IMG/VR virus record: IMGVR_UViG_3300017750_000043
Span: 1-35,124 of that record
Strand: one strand, 5' to 3'
Length of the DNA: 35,124 nt
DNA from: a virus
In this document: piece by piece, positions 1 to 35,124 of the stretch
Position numbering within the stretch: position 1 is the first letter of the stretch
Layout: each line of letters opens with the position of its first letter
The notes under the pieces: model-generated
Databases searched by the model: none
The model's input: only the letters and a program-made list of their open reading frames with translations
Told to the model about the DNA's origin: nothing
Program-made: the position numbers and the translations under genes

Positions 1-123
1 GAGCTGTCTATGTACATAGCAGTTGAATTGTTAGGTTTAAACTCGATAAAACTATCAGTGTCTATAATTAGACCTGTACTGCTTAATTGTAAAAATGCTC
101 TTAATGTTCCTGCTGTATTATGA
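1..123. repeat. Terminal direct repeat, left copy (contig overlap)
   Basis: These 123 bases are identical to 35002-35124. Both copies lie inside one reading frame of the tail-fibre gene, and joining them keeps that frame open. The simplest reading is an assembly overlap of a circular or circularly permuted genome of 35,001 bp. A true short terminal repeat of packaged DNA is possible but less likely, because it would split a gene. Confidence 0.95.
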
Positions 124-6759: not shown

Positions 6760-7159
6760 CTTCCAGAGCTTTTTTCGGTTGAGTATCTTGATTGCTCGTT
6801 ACCTCTTCGTATGCTTTTTCTATAGGGCTTTCCTCGTATCCGCATTCACGCAAGACTGCTTCCATGTTGCCGAACATTTCTACCTCGTTCTTCTCAGATT
6901 GTCCAAGGTATTGCTTTCCGAGGAATATCAATAGTGCGGTATTGCCATTCTCAGCGTGTTTCCATTGGAGCTGACGAAGCTTTATCTTCATCTGTTCCTT
7001 GCCTACCTGCAACTCATCCCTAAACTTATTGCGAATCGTTGATTCATCTACAGCGAAGAATCGTGCAATTTCAGTAATACTACAACCCATCGTAGATAGC
7101 ATTTGTACCTTGTCTGGGTCTATGTCTTTGGCTTTGTAGCCTGTCTTTTTTCTACTCAT
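6746..7159 (-). CDS. terS: Terminase small subunit
   Basis: 137 aa when started at the ATG at 7159 (a TTG one codon earlier is also possible). The N-terminal half holds a helix-turn-helix (VQMLSTMGCSITEIARFFAVDESTIRNKF) of the type used for DNA recognition by small terminases; the rest is helical (QMKIKLRQLQWKHAENGNTALLIFLGKQYLGQ), with the K-x-LG-K-x-x-L pattern common in these proteins. It overlaps both neighbours in the late operon directly before the large terminase. It probably recognises the pac/cos site and regulates cutting. Confidence 0.85.
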   Translation of the reverse strand: MSRKKTGYKAKDIDPDKVQMLSTMGCSITEIARFFAVDESTIRNKFRDELQVGKEQMKIKLRQLQWKHAENGNTALLIFLGKQYLGQSEKNEVEMFGNMEAVLRECGYEESPIEKAYEEVTSNQDTQPKKALEVGRV

Positions 7160-7481
7160 CAATAATATCCATAAAGGCTACATCCTGAAACAAGCCATTA
7201 CACTTGGATAGACAACGTCTCCAATAGGTTTTTGCAGATGATACGCTAACACCTATTTGAGATGCGATGAGTGGAAACGAATGATTTCTTAGTCTCATGA
7301 GAAACACTTCCTTCTCTCTGCTTGAGAACATATCGTATGCCTTGTGTGCAGCGAGTTGAAAGTTTCTAAGTTCAGGCTCAATGAGACCTGATCGAAACGC
7401 TTTCATCTTGTCGGTATACTCCGTTGCAAGCTCCATTGCTTCATTAAGTGATTCTACTGAGTCTTCTGATATCCAATCCAT
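7152..7481 (-). CDS. Sigma-region-4-like HTH protein, probable late regulator
   Basis: 109 aa. The C-terminal half (MFSSREKEVFLMRLRNHSFPLIASQIGVSVSSAKTYWRRCLSKC) has the layout of a sigma-70 region 4 / LuxR-type helix-turn-helix: a REKEVF helix, an IASQIGVS turn and an SAKTYWRR recognition helix. The N-terminus is helical. It is the first gene of the long minus-strand late operon, where ArpU/RinA-like late activators often sit. The ATG at 7481 is preceded by AAAGGA. A palindromic motif (7491-7504) lies just upstream. A role in late transcription is an inference from fold and place. Confidence 0.7.
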   Translation of the reverse strand: MDWISEDSVESLNEAMELATEYTDKMKAFRSGLIEPELRNFQLAAHKAYDMFSSREKEVFLMRLRNHSFPLIASQIGVSVSSAKTYWRRCLSKCNGLFQDVAFMDIIDE

Positions 7482-7490
7482 GCGTGTTCC

Positions 7491-7504
7491 TTTTGTTCAC
7501 AAAA
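7491..7504. promoter_or_regulatory. Candidate repressor operator, site A
   Basis: TTTTGT-TC-ACAAAA, a perfect palindrome with six-base arms, lies 10 bases before the first late gene's start codon and abuts its SD. Its core TTGTTCACA recurs at 16962-16970 (integrase/regulator region) and, inverted, at 7738-7746 (amidoligase promoter). All three copies are intergenic. A binding site for the phage's Cro/CI-like protein is inferred, not shown. Confidence 0.5.
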
Positions 7505-7814: not shown

Positions 7815-9101
7815 ATGCAAATAAGAAAAGAGGGTTTTGATTGTTGTCACTGTGAGAATACAATCGAGCCAAATAAACTAGGGTTAGTGATTAGTAATAA
7901 CGAAATAATGTGCGAGGAATGTGCGTGCAATACTGAATGCTGTTATGATTGTGAGGAAAGGCATGAATCCGATGATATGTACGAAATTAACGATGAATGG
8001 TACTGCGATGTCTGTATTTGGGAACATTATATAATTTGTGATTCATGTGAGGATTATGTCGGTATCGACTATTATCACTACGACGAAGATAATGATGAAA
8101 GACTATGTAATGATTGTAAGCCTGAAAGATTTATCAAGAATTATTCTTTTAAACCAGAGCCGATATTCTTTTTTCAGCAAGACAAGGAAAAGCCCTACTT
8201 TGAAAAGGATAAAAGAATCGTTTTCGGGTTTGAGTTGGAAGTTGAGAATTACAGCGGTGCTTATAGTTCGGAAGATTTAGCGAGAGAATTAAAAGCACAA
8301 TTTGATGATTTTTTGTATTTCAAATGGGATTCAAGTCTAGAGGATGGATTTGAAATAGTTTCACATCCGATGACCTATTGCTACTTTAAAAGCAATATAA
8401 ATCGCTTTAAATCGATGTTACAAACGATAAGAAATTGCGGTTTTCGTTCTTATGATATGGACACATGCGGACTTCATATTACTTTGAGTAGAAAAACTTT
8501 TACTCATTCCCATTTTTTGAAGTTTGTTGATTTTTTTAACAATTCATCAAACCACGCTTTGCTGAAAGCTTTAAGTCAAAGAACGTCACGTTCTAGCCAT
8601 TGGGCAAAATTAAAAAAAGACTTTAATAAACGCACAATGATAGAATTTGCAAAAGACAAAAACAGCCATCAACCTACAGACAGACACAAAGCCTTAAATC
8701 TTACCAATACGAAAACCATTGAGATTAGGTTATTTAGAGGAACCCTAAAAGATGAAAGTTTTTTAAAAGCTTTTGAAAGTGTTTTGTCTATTTACGACTA
8801 CACTTATAAAATGACTTTTAACGCTTTGAAAATCAATGAACCTAAATTAGACAAGCAATCAAAAAACGTAAGGGATGAAATATTAAAAAATGCGAACCTT
8901 GACGGATTCGTGGCACCTATTACAAAGGGATTAATTAATAAAAATTATTACATTACATATATTGCAAGCCATAAAAAGCAATTTAGTAATTTAGATAATT
9001 TTCTTAAAAATATTCCTCAATCAAACTATAAAATTCATGGATCAAAAAACCGAATTTTTGAATTCAATAAATTAATAAATAATGAAAGGATGTACATTTA
9101 A
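7815..9101 (+). CDS. Amidoligase (GS-like COOH-NH2 ligase fold) with three N-terminal zinc ribbons
   Basis: 428 aa. Residues 1-105 hold three tandem CxxC...CxxC units (C10/C13-C33/C36, C43/C46-C64/C67, C75/C78-C98/C101), a LIM-like zinc-ribbon row. From ~135 comes an amidoligase (Amidoligase_2-like) domain of the glutamine-synthetase fold: FGFELEVE (E140, E142, E144; ATP/Mg strand), WDSSLEDGFEIVSHPM (171-186), CGLHITLSR (H221) and TKTIEIRLFRGTL (E303, R305, R308). These enzymes activate a carboxylate with ATP and couple it to an amine; the target is unknown. The ATG at 7815 follows TAACGAAAGGG. The stop overlaps the start of the GATase (TAATG), so the two are co-translated. AT-rich codon use and reversed strand suggest later acquisition. 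Confidence 0.85.
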   Translation: MQIRKEGFDCCHCENTIEPNKLGLVISNNEIMCEECACNTECCYDCEERHESDDMYEINDEWYCDVCIWEHYIICDSCEDYVGIDYYHYDEDNDERLCNDCKPERFIKNYSFKPEPIFFFQQDKEKPYFEKDKRIVFGFELEVENYSGAYSSEDLARELKAQFDDFLYFKWDSSLEDGFEIVSHPMTYCYFKSNINRFKSMLQTIRNCGFRSYDMDTCGLHITLSRKTFTHSHFLKFVDFFNNSSNHALLKALSQRTSRSSHWAKLKKDFNKRTMIEFAKDKNSHQPTDRHKALNLTNTKTIEIRLFRGTLKDESFLKAFESVLSIYDYTYKMTFNALKINEPKLDKQSKNVRDEILKNANLDGFVAPITKGLINKNYYITYIASHKKQFSNLDNFLKNIPQSNYKIHGSKNRIFEFNKLINNERMYI

Positions 9102-9799
9102 TGTGTATTGCGATTAATTCACCAAAGGGAACTGAACCGACAAAATCAGCATTAAAAGAATCATTTATAAATAATCCGCACGGCGGCGGCTTTGCTTATG
9201 CAAAAAAAAATAAGATAATAGTCAAAAAAGGCTTTGAGACCTTTAAAGACTTTTACGCTGAATATAAGAACGCAAATATTCAGGGATTGAATAAGTTGAT
9301 TCATTTTAGGATTAAAACAAGTGGCAAAATAAATTATGATAATTGCCATCCGTTTTATGTGACAGCTAATCTAGTGATGATTCACAACGGCATAATTCCA
9401 AACTTTGGAAACGATGAAGTGTCCGACACTAGGGAATTTATTTCAATGGTACTAAAGCCGATTATCTTAAAACATGGAATTAACATTCTAAACAATCCGA
9501 CATTTATCAACACGATTGAGGATATTATAGGCGGTTCTAAGCTTGTCTTTTTAGATAATCTTGGCAATACCTACTATGTAAATAAAGACCTCGGTCATGA
9601 TAATAATAAAATATGGTATTCAAACGATTCTTACATGAATTATACCCAATACTACATTGAAAGCGATAATTCTTACGAGTTTGATTCATGTAAGCTTTGT
9701 AATGATTGCGGTCAAATTATGGATAAATCGGTTGACTTAACGTATTGTGAAGAGTGTAATGAGTACGATAAAATATATAATCCGTACCATTTTAATTAA
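9101..9799 (+). CDS. Class II glutamine amidotransferase (Ntn hydrolase)
   Basis: 232 aa. All GATase-II hallmarks are visible: Cys2 becomes the N-terminal nucleophile after Met removal, NPHGGGFAY (25-33), HFRIKTSG (H68, R70, T73), NCHPF (81-85), the oxyanion HNG (95-97) and SDT (108-110, the substrate-carboxylate Asp). The C-terminal ~35 residues add a zinc ribbon (C197, C200, C203, C216, C219). The expected role is to release ammonia from glutamine. Coupling to the amidoligase by a TAATG overlap suggests ammonia or an amidated product is handed to, or trimmed from, the ligase. It lacks the synthase domain of asparagine synthetase or GlmS, so it must act with a partner. No transit sequence; cytoplasmic. 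Confidence 0.85.
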   Translation: MCIAINSPKGTEPTKSALKESFINNPHGGGFAYAKKNKIIVKKGFETFKDFYAEYKNANIQGLNKLIHFRIKTSGKINYDNCHPFYVTANLVMIHNGIIPNFGNDEVSDTREFISMVLKPIILKHGINILNNPTFINTIEDIIGGSKLVFLDNLGNTYYVNKDLGHDNNKIWYSNDSYMNYTQYYIESDNSYEFDSCKLCNDCGQIMDKSVDLTYCEECNEYDKIYNPYHFN

Positions 9800-9829
9800 C
9801 CGCTAAACTGAAGATTCCGTAAGGATGAA

Positions 9830-9855
9830 ATAAGGGCGGTATTTACTGCCCTTAT
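9830..9855 (+). terminator. Hairpin between GATase and membrane-peptide gene
   Basis: Ten-base stem (ATAAGGGCGG / CTGCCCTTAT, one G-T pair) with a six-base loop, 30 bases after the GATase stop. It has no U-run; an attenuator or mRNA-end stabiliser that lowers or separates expression of the following peptide is plausible. Confidence 0.55.
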
Positions 9856-9884
9856 ATTTAGCTAAATAAAGAAAGGTAAAAAAA

Positions 9885-10016
9885 ATGATTAAACATGAAT
9901 TAAGATATAAAAATAATTTGACTGGTAAAGCTTTTGTCATTATGCTTACCAGTATATATTTTTTAATCGCTGTATGTGGTGTCGCTTTTATGCTGTTTTC
10001 CCTTTTAGCTATTTAG
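9885..10016 (+). CDS. 43-aa single-span membrane peptide
   Basis: ATG at 9885 preceded by AGAAAGG; stop TAG at 10014. A charged N-terminus with Lys/Arg (MIKHELRYKNNLTGK) is followed by one long hydrophobic segment (residues ~16-43, AFVIMLTSIYFLIAVCGVAF onward) that runs to the end, so the basic end should face the cytoplasm. It is the third gene of the accessory cassette and is closed by a strong terminator. No family recognised. It could be a membrane anchor, a small toxin-like or immunity peptide, or the substrate of the amidoligase/GATase pair (it has a free C-terminal carboxylate and N-terminal lysines). Small size makes this less certain than its neighbours. Confidence 0.6.
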   Translation: MIKHELRYKNNLTGKAFVIMLTSIYFLIAVCGVAFMLFSLLAI

Positions 10017-10030
10017 CAACACCCAGCGTT

Positions 10031-10072
10031 GAAGGGGCTTGAATTTATCGTTCTTGCCCCTTCTTTTCATTT
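10031..10072 (+). terminator. Rho-independent terminator of the accessory cassette
   Basis: Stem GAAGGGGC (10031-10038) / GCCCCTTC (10056-10063) followed by TTTTCATTT. The GC-rich stem and T-run 15 bases after the membrane-peptide stop make a convincing terminator. Confidence 0.85.
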
Positions 10073-10110
10073 ATACTTTATAATTTATATTTTAATCAAT
10101 ACTAAGTAAG

Positions 10111-10136
10111 CCTTTTATAATAAAAGGTCTTTTTTA
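10111..10136 (+). terminator. Second, AT-rich terminator-like hairpin
   Basis: CCTTTTA-TAA-TAAAAGG stem-loop (10111-10127) followed by TCTTTTTT. In tandem with the terminator at 10031 it would isolate the iteron region from read-through. Confidence 0.6.
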
Positions 10137-10220
10137 CCCTGTTTTTAAGCTTTATTTTTTACTAAAAATTTAATTTTTGCTTAAATGATATCTTTTTATA
10201 TGATTTTAAATATTTTATTT

Positions 10221-10330
10221 ATTGATACAACTCGCAATATTTATTGATACAACTCGCAATAACTATTGAGATTTTTCGCAATAACTATTGAGATTTTTTG
10301 CAATAACTATTGAGATTTTTTGCAATAAAA
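10221..10330. repeat. Five tandem 22-bp iterons
   Basis: Five units of exactly 22 bp start at 10221, 10243, 10265, 10287 and 10309. All begin ATTGA and contain (C/T)GCAATA near the end. Units 1-2 share ATTGATACAACTCGCAATA; units 3-5 share ATTGAGATTTTT(C/T)GCAATA. Two helical turns per unit would put bound protein on one face. An AT-rich tract lies on the left. This is the architecture of an iteron origin or partition site; no plasmid-type Rep gene is adjacent. Confidence 0.85.
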
Positions 10331-10642
10331 AAGGCAAAAAAACAGCTAAAAACTCTAATAATATATGGTAAAGGGTTCTAATAATATGAGCAAAAGGGTG
10401 ATTTTCTCCTCGAGAAACTCTAATAATAACAATGGCAGGGTAATTTTTAAATTTAAGATCTCCTGGGCTGCTGGATCAGCCAGGCTTAAGTGATCTCAAA
10501 GGCCAGGCTTGCGAACTCCGCAAACTTTGGACTGTAGCGGATATCTTTATACCAGAGATTTGAAGCGATGGTAATGTTGGTTTCGGAACTACGGCACCTG
10601 TGACCAATGCCTGTCCAAACTCTATCTTATATATAGTGTCTA

Positions 10643-10680: not shown

Positions 10681-10755
10681 AATATCTGAGCCACAGGGTA
10701 ATTTTAATATCTGAGCCACAGGGTAATTTTAATATCTGAGCCACAGGGTAATTTT
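10681..10755. repeat. Three perfect 25-bp tandem repeats
   Basis: Units at 10681-10705, 10706-10730 and 10731-10755 are identical, with core CTGAGCCACAGGGTAATTTT. The AGGGTAATTTT part also appears singly at 10437 and as AGGGTGATTTT at 10395, and the HNH ribosome site (AGGGTAATTATG, 10819) is similar. Each unit contains stop codons in several frames, so it is not coding. A regulatory or protein-binding array in the HNH leader is likely. Confidence 0.85.
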
Positions 10756-10827
10756 TATTGTAATGTATCCAAATTGTAAACTATATTAACATTTAAATTC
10801 TTTAACATTAATAACGAAAGGGTAATT

Positions 10828-11226
10828 ATGTTAATTAAAGACATAAAGCCAATTAAGAAAGAATGCAAAGATTGTGGAAAAATGAAACTGCATGAACAAT
10901 TTGCTACTGCTTCGTGGCGTACACTATCAGATGGAACTAGAAAGCACTATAGAAGGAAGTCATGTTCTAAGTGTTACTATAAAAGCCTTAATGCAAAAAG
11001 AAGAGCTGAGTTAAGAGAATGGTACTTGAGCATAAAAAATAAACAAAAATGTGTTGATTGTGGGTATGATAGATATCCAAGAGCTTTAGAATACCACCAT
11101 ACTGAAGATAATAAATCTCACAATGTAAGCGATATGATCGGTGATATGTTTTCTAAAGCTGCGATTTTAAAAGAAATGAGCAAATGTATCGTATTATGTG
11201 TAAGATGCCACGCTGAAAGACACTAA
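10828..11226 (+). CDS. HNH homing-type endonuclease
   Basis: 132 aa. An N-terminal zinc site (C13, C16, C46, C49) precedes an HNH domain with KCVDCGY (C75, C78), the LEYHH motif (H90, H91), an Asn in SHNVSD (N99), and CVRCHAERH (C124, C127, H128). This is the compact phage HNH nuclease class that cuts DNA with one metal ion. The ATG at 10828 follows TAACGAAAGGG, as for the amidoligase. It stands alone on the plus strand after a repeat-rich leader and ends 13 bases before the convergent gene at 11240. No intron core was seen beside it. Confidence 0.82.
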   Translation: MLIKDIKPIKKECKDCGKMKLHEQFATASWRTLSDGTRKHYRRKSCSKCYYKSLNAKRRAELREWYLSIKNKQKCVDCGYDRYPRALEYHHTEDNKSHNVSDMIGDMFSKAAILKEMSKCIVLCVRCHAERH

Positions 11227-11582: not shown

Positions 11583-11655
11583 TGTCGTATCTGTCGTAAA
11601 CTACTAAAAAATGTCGTACGTGTCGTAAAGTACGACAGTTACGACAGTTACGACA
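11583..11655. repeat. Array of seven TGTCGTA boxes with central dyad
   Basis: TGTCGTA occurs at 11583, 11592, 11612 and 11621 and, inverted as TACGACA, at 11631, 11640 and 11649. Spacing is nine bases within groups, and the arrangement flips around AAG at 11628-11630. The region lies between the ATPase stop (11665) and the start of the 112-aa gene. Such phased boxes with a dyad are typical of multi-subunit DNA binding, either a replication origin or an operator. Confidence 0.9.
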
Positions 11656-16709: not shown

Positions 16710-16904
16710 CTATACATTATACAAACTTTCTGGTTCTTCGCCAAGAACATTCGCAATGTCAATTCTAGTTTGACTATCCATAGTTCTTTGTCCCTTAAGC
16801 ATCATATGTATTAAACTATGGCTTTTGTTTAACTTTCGAGCCAACCATCTTTGGCTGCGCTCTTCATCTTTTAGTTTTTGTTTTATTCTCTCTAAATGGT
16901 TCAA
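16710..16904 (-). CDS. Cro/CI-like HTH regulator
   Basis: 64 aa, a bare XRE-family helix-turn-helix: LERIKQKLKDEERSQRWLARKLNKSHSLIHMMLKGQRTMDSQTRIDIANVLGEEP. The QRWLARKLNKSHSLIHMML segment is the HTH. There is no peptidase or dimerisation domain, so it is Cro-sized. TTG start at 16904, six bases after AAAGGA. Divergent from integrase; its promoter probably shares a -35 with the integrase promoter. It likely binds the TTGTTCACA palindromes in three control regions and so sets the lysis-lysogeny choice; that binding is inferred. Confidence 0.85.
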   Translation of the reverse strand: MNHLERIKQKLKDEERSQRWLARKLNKSHSLIHMMLKGQRTMDSQTRIDIANVLGEEPESLYNV

Positions 16905-34021: not shown

Positions 34022-35124
34022 TTTCTAACGCTTCTACTTTTGCTGTTAGTTCTTGTACTGCTTTAACAAGCAATGGCACAAGTTTTGATTGGTCAATGCT
34101 TTGCGATACAATATTACCATCATCATCTACTGCATCTTTTTCTCCAATTATTGCTTCTGGTACTATATCTGAAACTTCGTGTGCAAAGAAACCATCAACA
34201 GTTGTGTCTTTATCTGCTTTAAAATTAAACCTGTAAGGCTTTAGTTGATTTAACCTTGTTAATCCATCAGATATTACAACTTCGTTTTCTTTTAGTCTGT
34301 AATCTGAAGAAGTAGTAAAAGATGTGCCACTTCCACTTGTAGTAATTGCACCTACTTGTCCATTCCCATTATAAAATCTTTGCAAATCGTATGAACTTGT
34401 ATATGCTCCACAATTTAAAGCTAAACCTATACTACCAAAAGCACCACCAAGTGACCAAAATAATTTATTACCTTGTGCAGATAAATCTTGAGATGCACTT
34501 AAACCTGAGTTATCTCCACCATTTAATTGACCATTTTGCACAAGCCTCATTTGTTCGACATCATTAATAGTCCATCTAAAATCTACTCCTGAACCACCAG
34601 TTGTGCCTGGGTCTACTCTAAAAATTAAACCATCGCCATTATTGCATATTTCATTATAATAAGAATATCCACTATTATTAAATCTTATACCATCTGTATT
34701 AGATGCCCCATTCAAATCAAGTATTCTTGCTGGACTTGAAGTTCCTATACCAACTTTTCCATCATTAGTAAAAGTTGCTACTGCTGTTGTAGTATCGGCA
34801 TTAAATATACCAAATTTACCACCAGCAAAACTTCCACCACTACCACCAGAAATTAAGTACCATTTATCACCATTAGTTGAAGTATTATCTAAAGATAATA
34901 TGGTTTCTCCACTACTTCCTGTAAATTGAGAAACAATAGCCTCTGAAGAAGCAAGGTCAAGTTTATATGCAGGACTTGTTGTACCAATACCTACGTTGCC
35001 AGAGCTGTCTATGTACATAGCAGTTGAATTGTTAGGTTTAAACTCGATAAAACTATCAGTGTCTATAATTAGACCTGTACTGCTTAATTGTAAAAATGCT
35101 CTTAATGTTCCTGCTGTATTATGA
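34014..35124 (-). CDS. Tail fibre, C-terminal part with S74 autocleaving chaperone domain
   Basis: C-terminal part of the 750-aa fibre begun at 1265. The shaft has the GNVGIGTTSPA motif twice in similar form (SGNVGIGTTSPAYKLDLA and DGKVGIGTSSPARILDLN). The last ~97 residues match the peptidase S74 intramolecular chaperone: SDYRLKENE gives the Ser-x4-Lys dyad (S654, K659 on the joined protein), followed by GFFAHEV, VPEAI and a C-terminal coiled coil (KLVPLLVKAVQELTAKVEALE). In characterised S74 proteins this domain trimerises the fibre and then cuts itself off just before the Asp. An in-frame ATG at 35018 is internal, not the real start. The stop overlaps the start of the next gene (34021). 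Confidence 0.92.
   Translation of the reverse strand, partial: HNTAGTLRAFLQLSSTGLIIDTDSFIEFKPNNSTAMYIDSSGNVGIGTTSPAYKLDLASSEAIVSQFTGSSGETILSLDNTSTNGDKWYLISGGSGGSFAGGKFGIFNADTTTAVATFTNDGKVGIGTSSPARILDLNGASNTDGIRFNNSGYSYYNEICNNGDGLIFRVDPGTTGGSGVDFRWTINDVEQMRLVQNGQLNGGDNSGLSASQDLSAQGNKLFWSLGGAFGSIGLALNCGAYTSSYDLQRFYNGNGQVGAITTSGSGTSFTTSSDYRLKENEVVISDGLTRLNQLKPYRFNFKADKDTTVDGFFAHEVSDIVPEAIIGEKDAVDDDGNIVSQSIDQSKLVPLLVKAVQELTAKVEALENA
35002..35124. repeat. Terminal direct repeat, right copy (contig overlap)
   Basis: Exact copy of bases 1-123. It carries codons of the tail-fibre gene around the peptide MYIDSSGNVGIG. Counted once, the genome is 35,001 bp. Confidence 0.95.

Follow-up and report, generated by a model that had tools for sequence, protein, structure and literature searches.

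The window, i.e., the whole stretch of 35,124 nucleotides analyzed here (IMG/VR virus record IMGVR_UViG_3300017750_000043), carries five head-to-tail 22-bp repeats at positions 10221–10330, which raises the question of what such an array does in a phage genome. A preliminary description of this locus had left three options: the array could be an origin of the iteron type, resemble a centromere or serve as a multi-copy operator. Based on the conserved, helically spaced 18-bp dyads in non-coding DNA described below, the multi-copy operator is supported, while the iteron origin and the centromere-like site are not.

The phage genome and its relatives

A direct repeat of 123 bp is present at both ends of the window (1–123 = 35002–35124), which fits a complete genome, circular or circularly permuted, with a unit of 35,001 bp. 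The gene products include capsid, portal, terminase and tape-measure proteins, an endolysin, a tyrosine integrase and a 64-aa HTH protein, together with replication-type proteins (a DnaB/AAA_25-type helicase, a primase, a PD-(D/E)XK exonuclease and an SSB-like protein). Considering these structural, lysis, replication, integrase and HTH proteins, the phage is a temperate siphophage. The HTH protein is encoded at 16710–16904, and a sigma-like protein at 7152–7481. Its nearest relatives are viral contigs from public metagenomes, and the searches for relatives detected no described phage close to it; the character of these relatives points to a marine origin. A search by helicase profile detected no prophage in ~1,060 genomes sampled from one class and two phyla, and Rfam gave zero matches in the window at gathering thresholds. 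Dyads of the TTGTTCACAA/TGTGAACA type were observed at 7493, 7738 and 16962, in the sigma/terminase, amidoligase and repressor-integrase promoter regions, and could be operators for the HTH repressor of the phage itself.

The array and its repeat unit

The repeat units start at 10221, 10243, 10265, 10287 and 10309, with a pitch of exactly 22 bp. Shifted by 22 bp, the best 88-bp stretch agrees with itself at 80 of its 88 positions, compared with a maximum of 45 among 500 Markov shuffles of the local region, and a chance origin of the repeat is thus excluded. The head-to-tail units reported in the preliminary description are therefore real, and its two subtypes correspond to ATTGATACAACTCGCAAT in units 1–2 and ATTGAGATTTTTYGCAAT in units 3–5. 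Its account of the surroundings also holds: no ORF of at least 60 aa overlaps 9800–10475; the 100 bp to the left of the array (10121–10220), between the cassette terminator and the first unit, are 85% A+T; the amidoligase cassette (7815–9799) lies on one side and an HNH gene (10828–11226) on the opposite one; and no plasmid-type Rep or ParAB gene was recognized, with no Rep or Par match among the proteins scanned.

Two dyads compete when the window is considered alone, i.e., CAATA-NN-TATTG across the linker and ATTGAGA-N4-TCKCAAT inside each unit. Two other close relatives with an array keep the pitch and differ in the spacer bases. In more distant relatives the sites are spaced by 23, 33 or 41–42 bp and the 18-bp dyad is retained, often nearly perfect (ATTGAGATTCATCTCATT). 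The linker-centred dyad is lost at all of these other spacings, and only the 18-bp ATTGAGA...TCTCAAT persists. We thus take the functional unit to be the 18-bp dyad ANTGAGANNNNTCKCANT, counted from each unit start and followed by a 4-bp linker. The predicted sites, all on the + strand, are located at 10221–10238 (ATTGATACAACTCGCAAT, 12/14 consensus positions matched), 10243–10260 (again ATTGATACAACTCGCAAT), 10265–10282 (ATTGAGATTTTTCGCAAT, 13/14), 10287–10304 and 10309–10326 (both ATTGAGATTTTTTGCAAT).

Eight positions (A1, T3, G4, A5, A7, C15, A16 and T18) are invariant over 32 sites from eight phages, and the spacings of 22, 23, 33 and 41–42 bp approximate two, three and four helical turns. 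Clusters of two sites did not occur in 60 Markov shuffles of the 35-kb window. The array thus presents conserved dyads within the 14–20 bp range in non-coding DNA at helical spacing, as is typical of a multi-site operator.

Some similar sequences were not retained. Trios of CAAT-N4-ATTG at 22 bp were detected in 80 stretches of bacterial genomes, many of which belong to dispersed arrays in two assemblies; these trios correspond to the linker-centred dyad rather than to the 18-bp site, and were treated as unrelated. Paired CAATACCTATTG-like sites between the terminase and portal genes of the unrelated phages L009, L011 and L012 are also of the linker-centred type and were set aside, and the perfect 18-bp matches in distant relatives are part of coding sequence, in portal and methylase genes. 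The dispersed arrays of CAAT-N4-ATTG dyads at exactly 22 bp were observed in one Verrucomicrobia assembly (DFGM01, locus L031 and others; 147 pairs) and in one Prevotellaceae assembly (FPIT01, locus L043 and others; 23 pairs, core CAATAACTATTG), with 0 in the reversed-pattern control.

Linkage of the array to the amidoligase–GATase cassette

The cassette comprises, on the + strand, an amidoligase gene at 7815–9101 (Pfam Amidoligase_2, E 2.5e-7), a class II glutamine amidotransferase-like gene (GATase) at 9101–9799 (Pfam GATase_4, E 1.2e-4, slightly below the curated cut-off) and, at its end, a predicted membrane microprotein of 43 aa at 9885–10016; similar ORFs of 37–43 aa are located 3' of GATase in the relatives. 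An intrinsic terminator on the + strand at 10031–10067, with a perfect 8-bp stem followed by a T run (-19.4 kcal/mol, z -6.6), closes the cassette ahead of the array. This separation of cassette and array supports the operator reading.

All eight non-redundant cassette-positive phages (the window; G005; G004; L129/L173; L143/L171; L167; L168/L169; L170) carry two to six sites, ~430–730 bp beyond the GATase stop. Cassette-positive status was scored by the neighboring GATase gene, and the amidoligase was seen in the five phages whose contigs reach it. Two further GATase loci have no site cluster: L174 ends inside the gene, and the GATase of L175 is only 30% identical. Among the 12 non-redundant cassette-negative relatives, with loci spanning helicase to sigma/TerS, no site cluster was found. 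The linkage (8/8 vs 0/12) gives P = 8e-6 when the phages are treated as independent, and shared ancestry lowers its true weight. The same pattern holds in two clades with helicases ~30% identical, and only the cassette genes are found in phages with an array and missing from those without one. Because related phages carry the sites only when they carry the cassette, the array looks like a switch or boundary element for the cassette, and not like a replication or partition site of the phage. It could also be passively inherited with the cassette.

The same site in unrelated phages

A motif-only scan of viral contigs detected the 22-bp unit of the array in two contigs (L179 and L185; 50–52% G+C) of an unrelated phage, where the asymmetric TCGCAAT half is also present and the linker is nearly identical. 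Protein similarity between this phage and the window proteins tested was restricted to TerL, i.e., 82 residues at 30%. The site pair in the unrelated phage is located ~200 bp upstream of an ORF cluster and adjoins GAGAATGAGAATCATTATC, which resembles a Fur box. A similar arrangement was observed at positions 1–420 of L189, from an unrelated phage, where two copies of the array unit adjoin two Fur-box-like sequences and a cluster of small genes lies downstream. A third phage has tandem TGAGACAAATCTCA sites near an S24-type repressor gene.

Since the site is common to unrelated phages and is conserved while the phage proteins diverge, a site for a host protein is the simplest reading. As a tentative extension, for which we see a lesser but real chance, unrelated marine phages may each have acquired tandem sites for one host regulator, tying the amidoligase cassette or early genes to the physiological state of the host, with cassette and array traveling as one module.

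Alternative explanations

An iteron-type replication origin, in which an initiator would bind the repeats and melt the adjoining A+T-rich tract, seems improbable. The array does consist of several direct repeats in the ~17–22 bp range at constant pitch, about two helical turns apart and next to an 85% A+T tract, and the replication genes are ~1.3 kb away. However, an origin is expected wherever the same replication proteins are used, and the array is missing from cassette-negative relatives whose helicase (96–99%), primase (83–87%), integrase (91–94%), HTH protein (98%), TerS (99%) and TerL (97%) are nearly identical to those of the window phage. These relatives argue against an obligate origin, an attP, a pac site and an immunity operator, and leave the plasmid-like origin or partition site of the preliminary description unsupported. 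Besides, the scanned proteins gave no match to a Rep family, none of the eight phages has a DnaA box (TTATNCACA, strict consensus only) less than 600 bp from the array, and the repeat unit was unmatched in 72,556 plasmid records when searched with a 63-base composite query built from the L185 copy, which is not a natural sequence; the same query retrieved nothing similar from phage records. GC skew, which had been suggested as a means of mapping the replication start, follows gene direction along the window and gives no origin signal. A different repeat block, of four TGTCGTA and then three TACGACA heptamers 9–20 bp apart, is located at 11583–11655 between the helicase gene and the next gene (112 aa). 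It is present in all close relatives read there, and distant relatives are organized in much the same way around a short repeat of their own (TGATAGT, TGTTAGT and others). Judged by position and layout only, this block would be a better origin candidate than the array, and it is likely an origin or a large inverted regulatory element. That a ParB- or ParR-like protein binds the array as the partition centromere of a prophage maintained outside the chromosome is the most doubtful proposal, even if tandem dyads at constant pitch resemble plasmid centromeres such as sopC: no ParA, ParM-type ATPase or ParB/ParR was recognized among the proteins scanned, relatives with an integrase 91–94% identical have no array, and the phage probably integrates, because it encodes a tyrosine integrase and an HTH repressor.

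Short tandem dyads are also common at integrase arm sites (attP), at terminase pac/cos sites and at repressor operators, and the integrase, the terminase and the 64-aa HTH repressor are all encoded in the window. We give little credence to such a site for a conserved phage protein, since the cassette-negative phage G003 lacks the array and has an integrase 94%, an HTH protein 98% and a TerS 99% identical, and, regarding the HTH repressor, sites scoring at least 11/14 are absent from the repressor-integrase promoter region at ~16.9–17.0 kb. On the other hand, the perfect linkage within the lineage could indicate that a cassette protein binds the array to autoregulate or mark the cassette, for example via the amidoligase N-terminus, which is Cys-rich, or the GATase tail, which is zinc-ribbon-like; both proteins contain Cys-pair motifs. 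This is unlikely considering that no DNA-binding domain was recognized in the cassette genes, that distant amidoligase loci of other phages have no paired CAAT-N4-ATTG dyads, and that the sites recur in an unrelated phage whose examined stretch shows no detectable cassette. Finally, the repeats might act as RNA, e.g., as hairpins of a 3' untranslated region or as a small RNA. The predicted fold of the array RNA is more stable than that of shuffles (-22.2 kcal/mol, z -4.2) and hammerhead ribozymes are found nearby, but good folding is expected of any palindrome array, and an intrinsic terminator on the + strand precedes this one. Substitutions in the dyad are mostly uncompensated over the 32 sites, with a common A5/G14 mismatch, so that they break pairing instead of preserving it; the dyad is thus best read as a DNA site rather than an RNA hairpin, and we regard a role as RNA as quite improbable.

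The operator reading and the possible binder

A DNA-binding protein almost certainly docks at the five 18-bp palindromes, and would bind the array as double-stranded DNA. On balance, we lean towards an operator-type array for a sequence-specific dimer. The binder is probably encoded by the host, as the motif is the same in two clades with strongly diverged core proteins and in an unrelated phage, and no recognizable DNA-binding gene accompanies the cassette. A perfect tandem version of the site was not found in 398 sampled genomes of one phylum.

We propose that a putative regulator dimer would occupy each of the five sites, with 4 bp between sites and on approximately one face of the helix, and that neighboring dimers probably cooperate, holding each other in place. 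The array would form part of the amidoligase–GATase accessory cassette, just beyond its terminator and ahead of a rightward small-gene leader. When bound, it could gate, silence or insulate transcription between the terminator (10031–10067) and this leader. The effect may be to repress, activate or block transcription at the 3' boundary of the cassette, coupling the region to host physiology. What speaks against this reading is that the array is placed 3' in the cassette and that no convincing promoter overlaps it; the flanking sequence most like a promoter, at 10758–10787, is ~430 bp away.

If a host regulator reads these sites, they would give direct access to the way in which a temperate phage senses its host, as well as a biochemical bait for a DNA-binding protein of uncultured marine bacteria. 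The strict link to the array defines the amidoligase–GATase cassette as a regulated module, which makes the function of the cassette testable. For annotation, the locus indicates that iteron-like arrays in phages are not necessarily origins.

Comparison with known systems

Tandem operators are of an already known kind; what is new here is the site itself, its strict linkage with the cassette within this lineage, its position at the 3' end of the cassette and the fact that an unrelated phage has it as well. The array resembles the lambdoid repressor operator clusters (lambda OL/OR, P22 c2) in having several tandem dyads of 17–18 bp a few bp apart, with about two helical turns between dyad centers. 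The P22 c2 consensus, ANTNAAGNNNNCTTNANT, presumably has the A-N-T...A-N-T frame in common with the array site. Unlike the lambdoid operators, the array comprises five sites with a GAGA/TCTC core. It is found at the 3' end of an accessory cassette, and neither separates divergent repressor and cro promoters nor adjoins the phage's own repressor gene.

The TGA-N8-TCA skeleton of the array site matches that of the ARG box consensus (ArgR/AhrC). The array differs from ARG boxes in its inner bases (GA/TC, not AT/AT), in its 4-bp gap and in having up to six sites, and arginine genes are absent near it. The ARG box arrangement, i.e., a TGAAT-N4-ATTCA core in 18-bp boxes 3 bp apart, was not found in the array, where the core is TGAGA-N4-TCKCA. 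ARG boxes are tandem 18-bp semi-palindromes with 3 bp between them and are bound by hexameric ArgR (PMC6640053).

Iteron plasmid origins likewise have 22-bp direct repeats adjoining an A+T-rich tract. Unlike these, the array has no Rep or DnaA boxes, is dispensable in close relatives, and every unit is itself a dyad. Plasmid centromeres such as F sopC are similar in their tandem units with a dyad in each. They differ in that no ParA/ParB was recognized for the array, in that an integrase is encoded by the phage, and in that the unit of the array is much shorter.

Other elements of the accessory region

A type I hammerhead ribozyme (GCTAAA|CTGAAGA|...|GAA|...|A|TTTAGC) was observed on the + strand at 9802–9862, between the GATase and the membrane microprotein. 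Nine distinct hammerhead sequences occur in relatives with or without the cassette, in which the core is kept and the stems differ and still pair. The pattern had zero matches in 1.05 Mb of shuffled sequence, and the window copy folds as expected (z -4.9). The window copy has no Rfam match at E 1, and the L005 copy matches RAGATH-1-hammerhead below threshold. Hammerheads in prophages are already known (PMC3088659).

The strand-specific motif TAATAATA-N6..14-AGGGT(AAT) occurs at 10354–10443, 10681–10755, 11234 and 16672 of the window, always on the + strand. It is often in tandem, as 25 bp x3 at 10681–10755 and as 33 bp x4 at 9215–9344 of L018, and in the window and G003 it is mostly restricted to the accessory region. 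Copies are often located ahead of rightward ORFs, resembling a promoter plus ribosome-binding site, and many have no ORF.

A non-coding snippet at 10565–10620, with the translation GNVGFGTTAP, resembles by eye the GNVGIGT motif of tail fibers. Snippets of this type recur near the array, in either orientation, in L014, L129, L143, L167, L169 and L170. To the right of the array, a hairpin TTTCTC-NNN-GAGAAA at ~10401–10416 is conserved in three related phages, in which the loop varies (ctc, gtc, gag) and the stem is unchanged.
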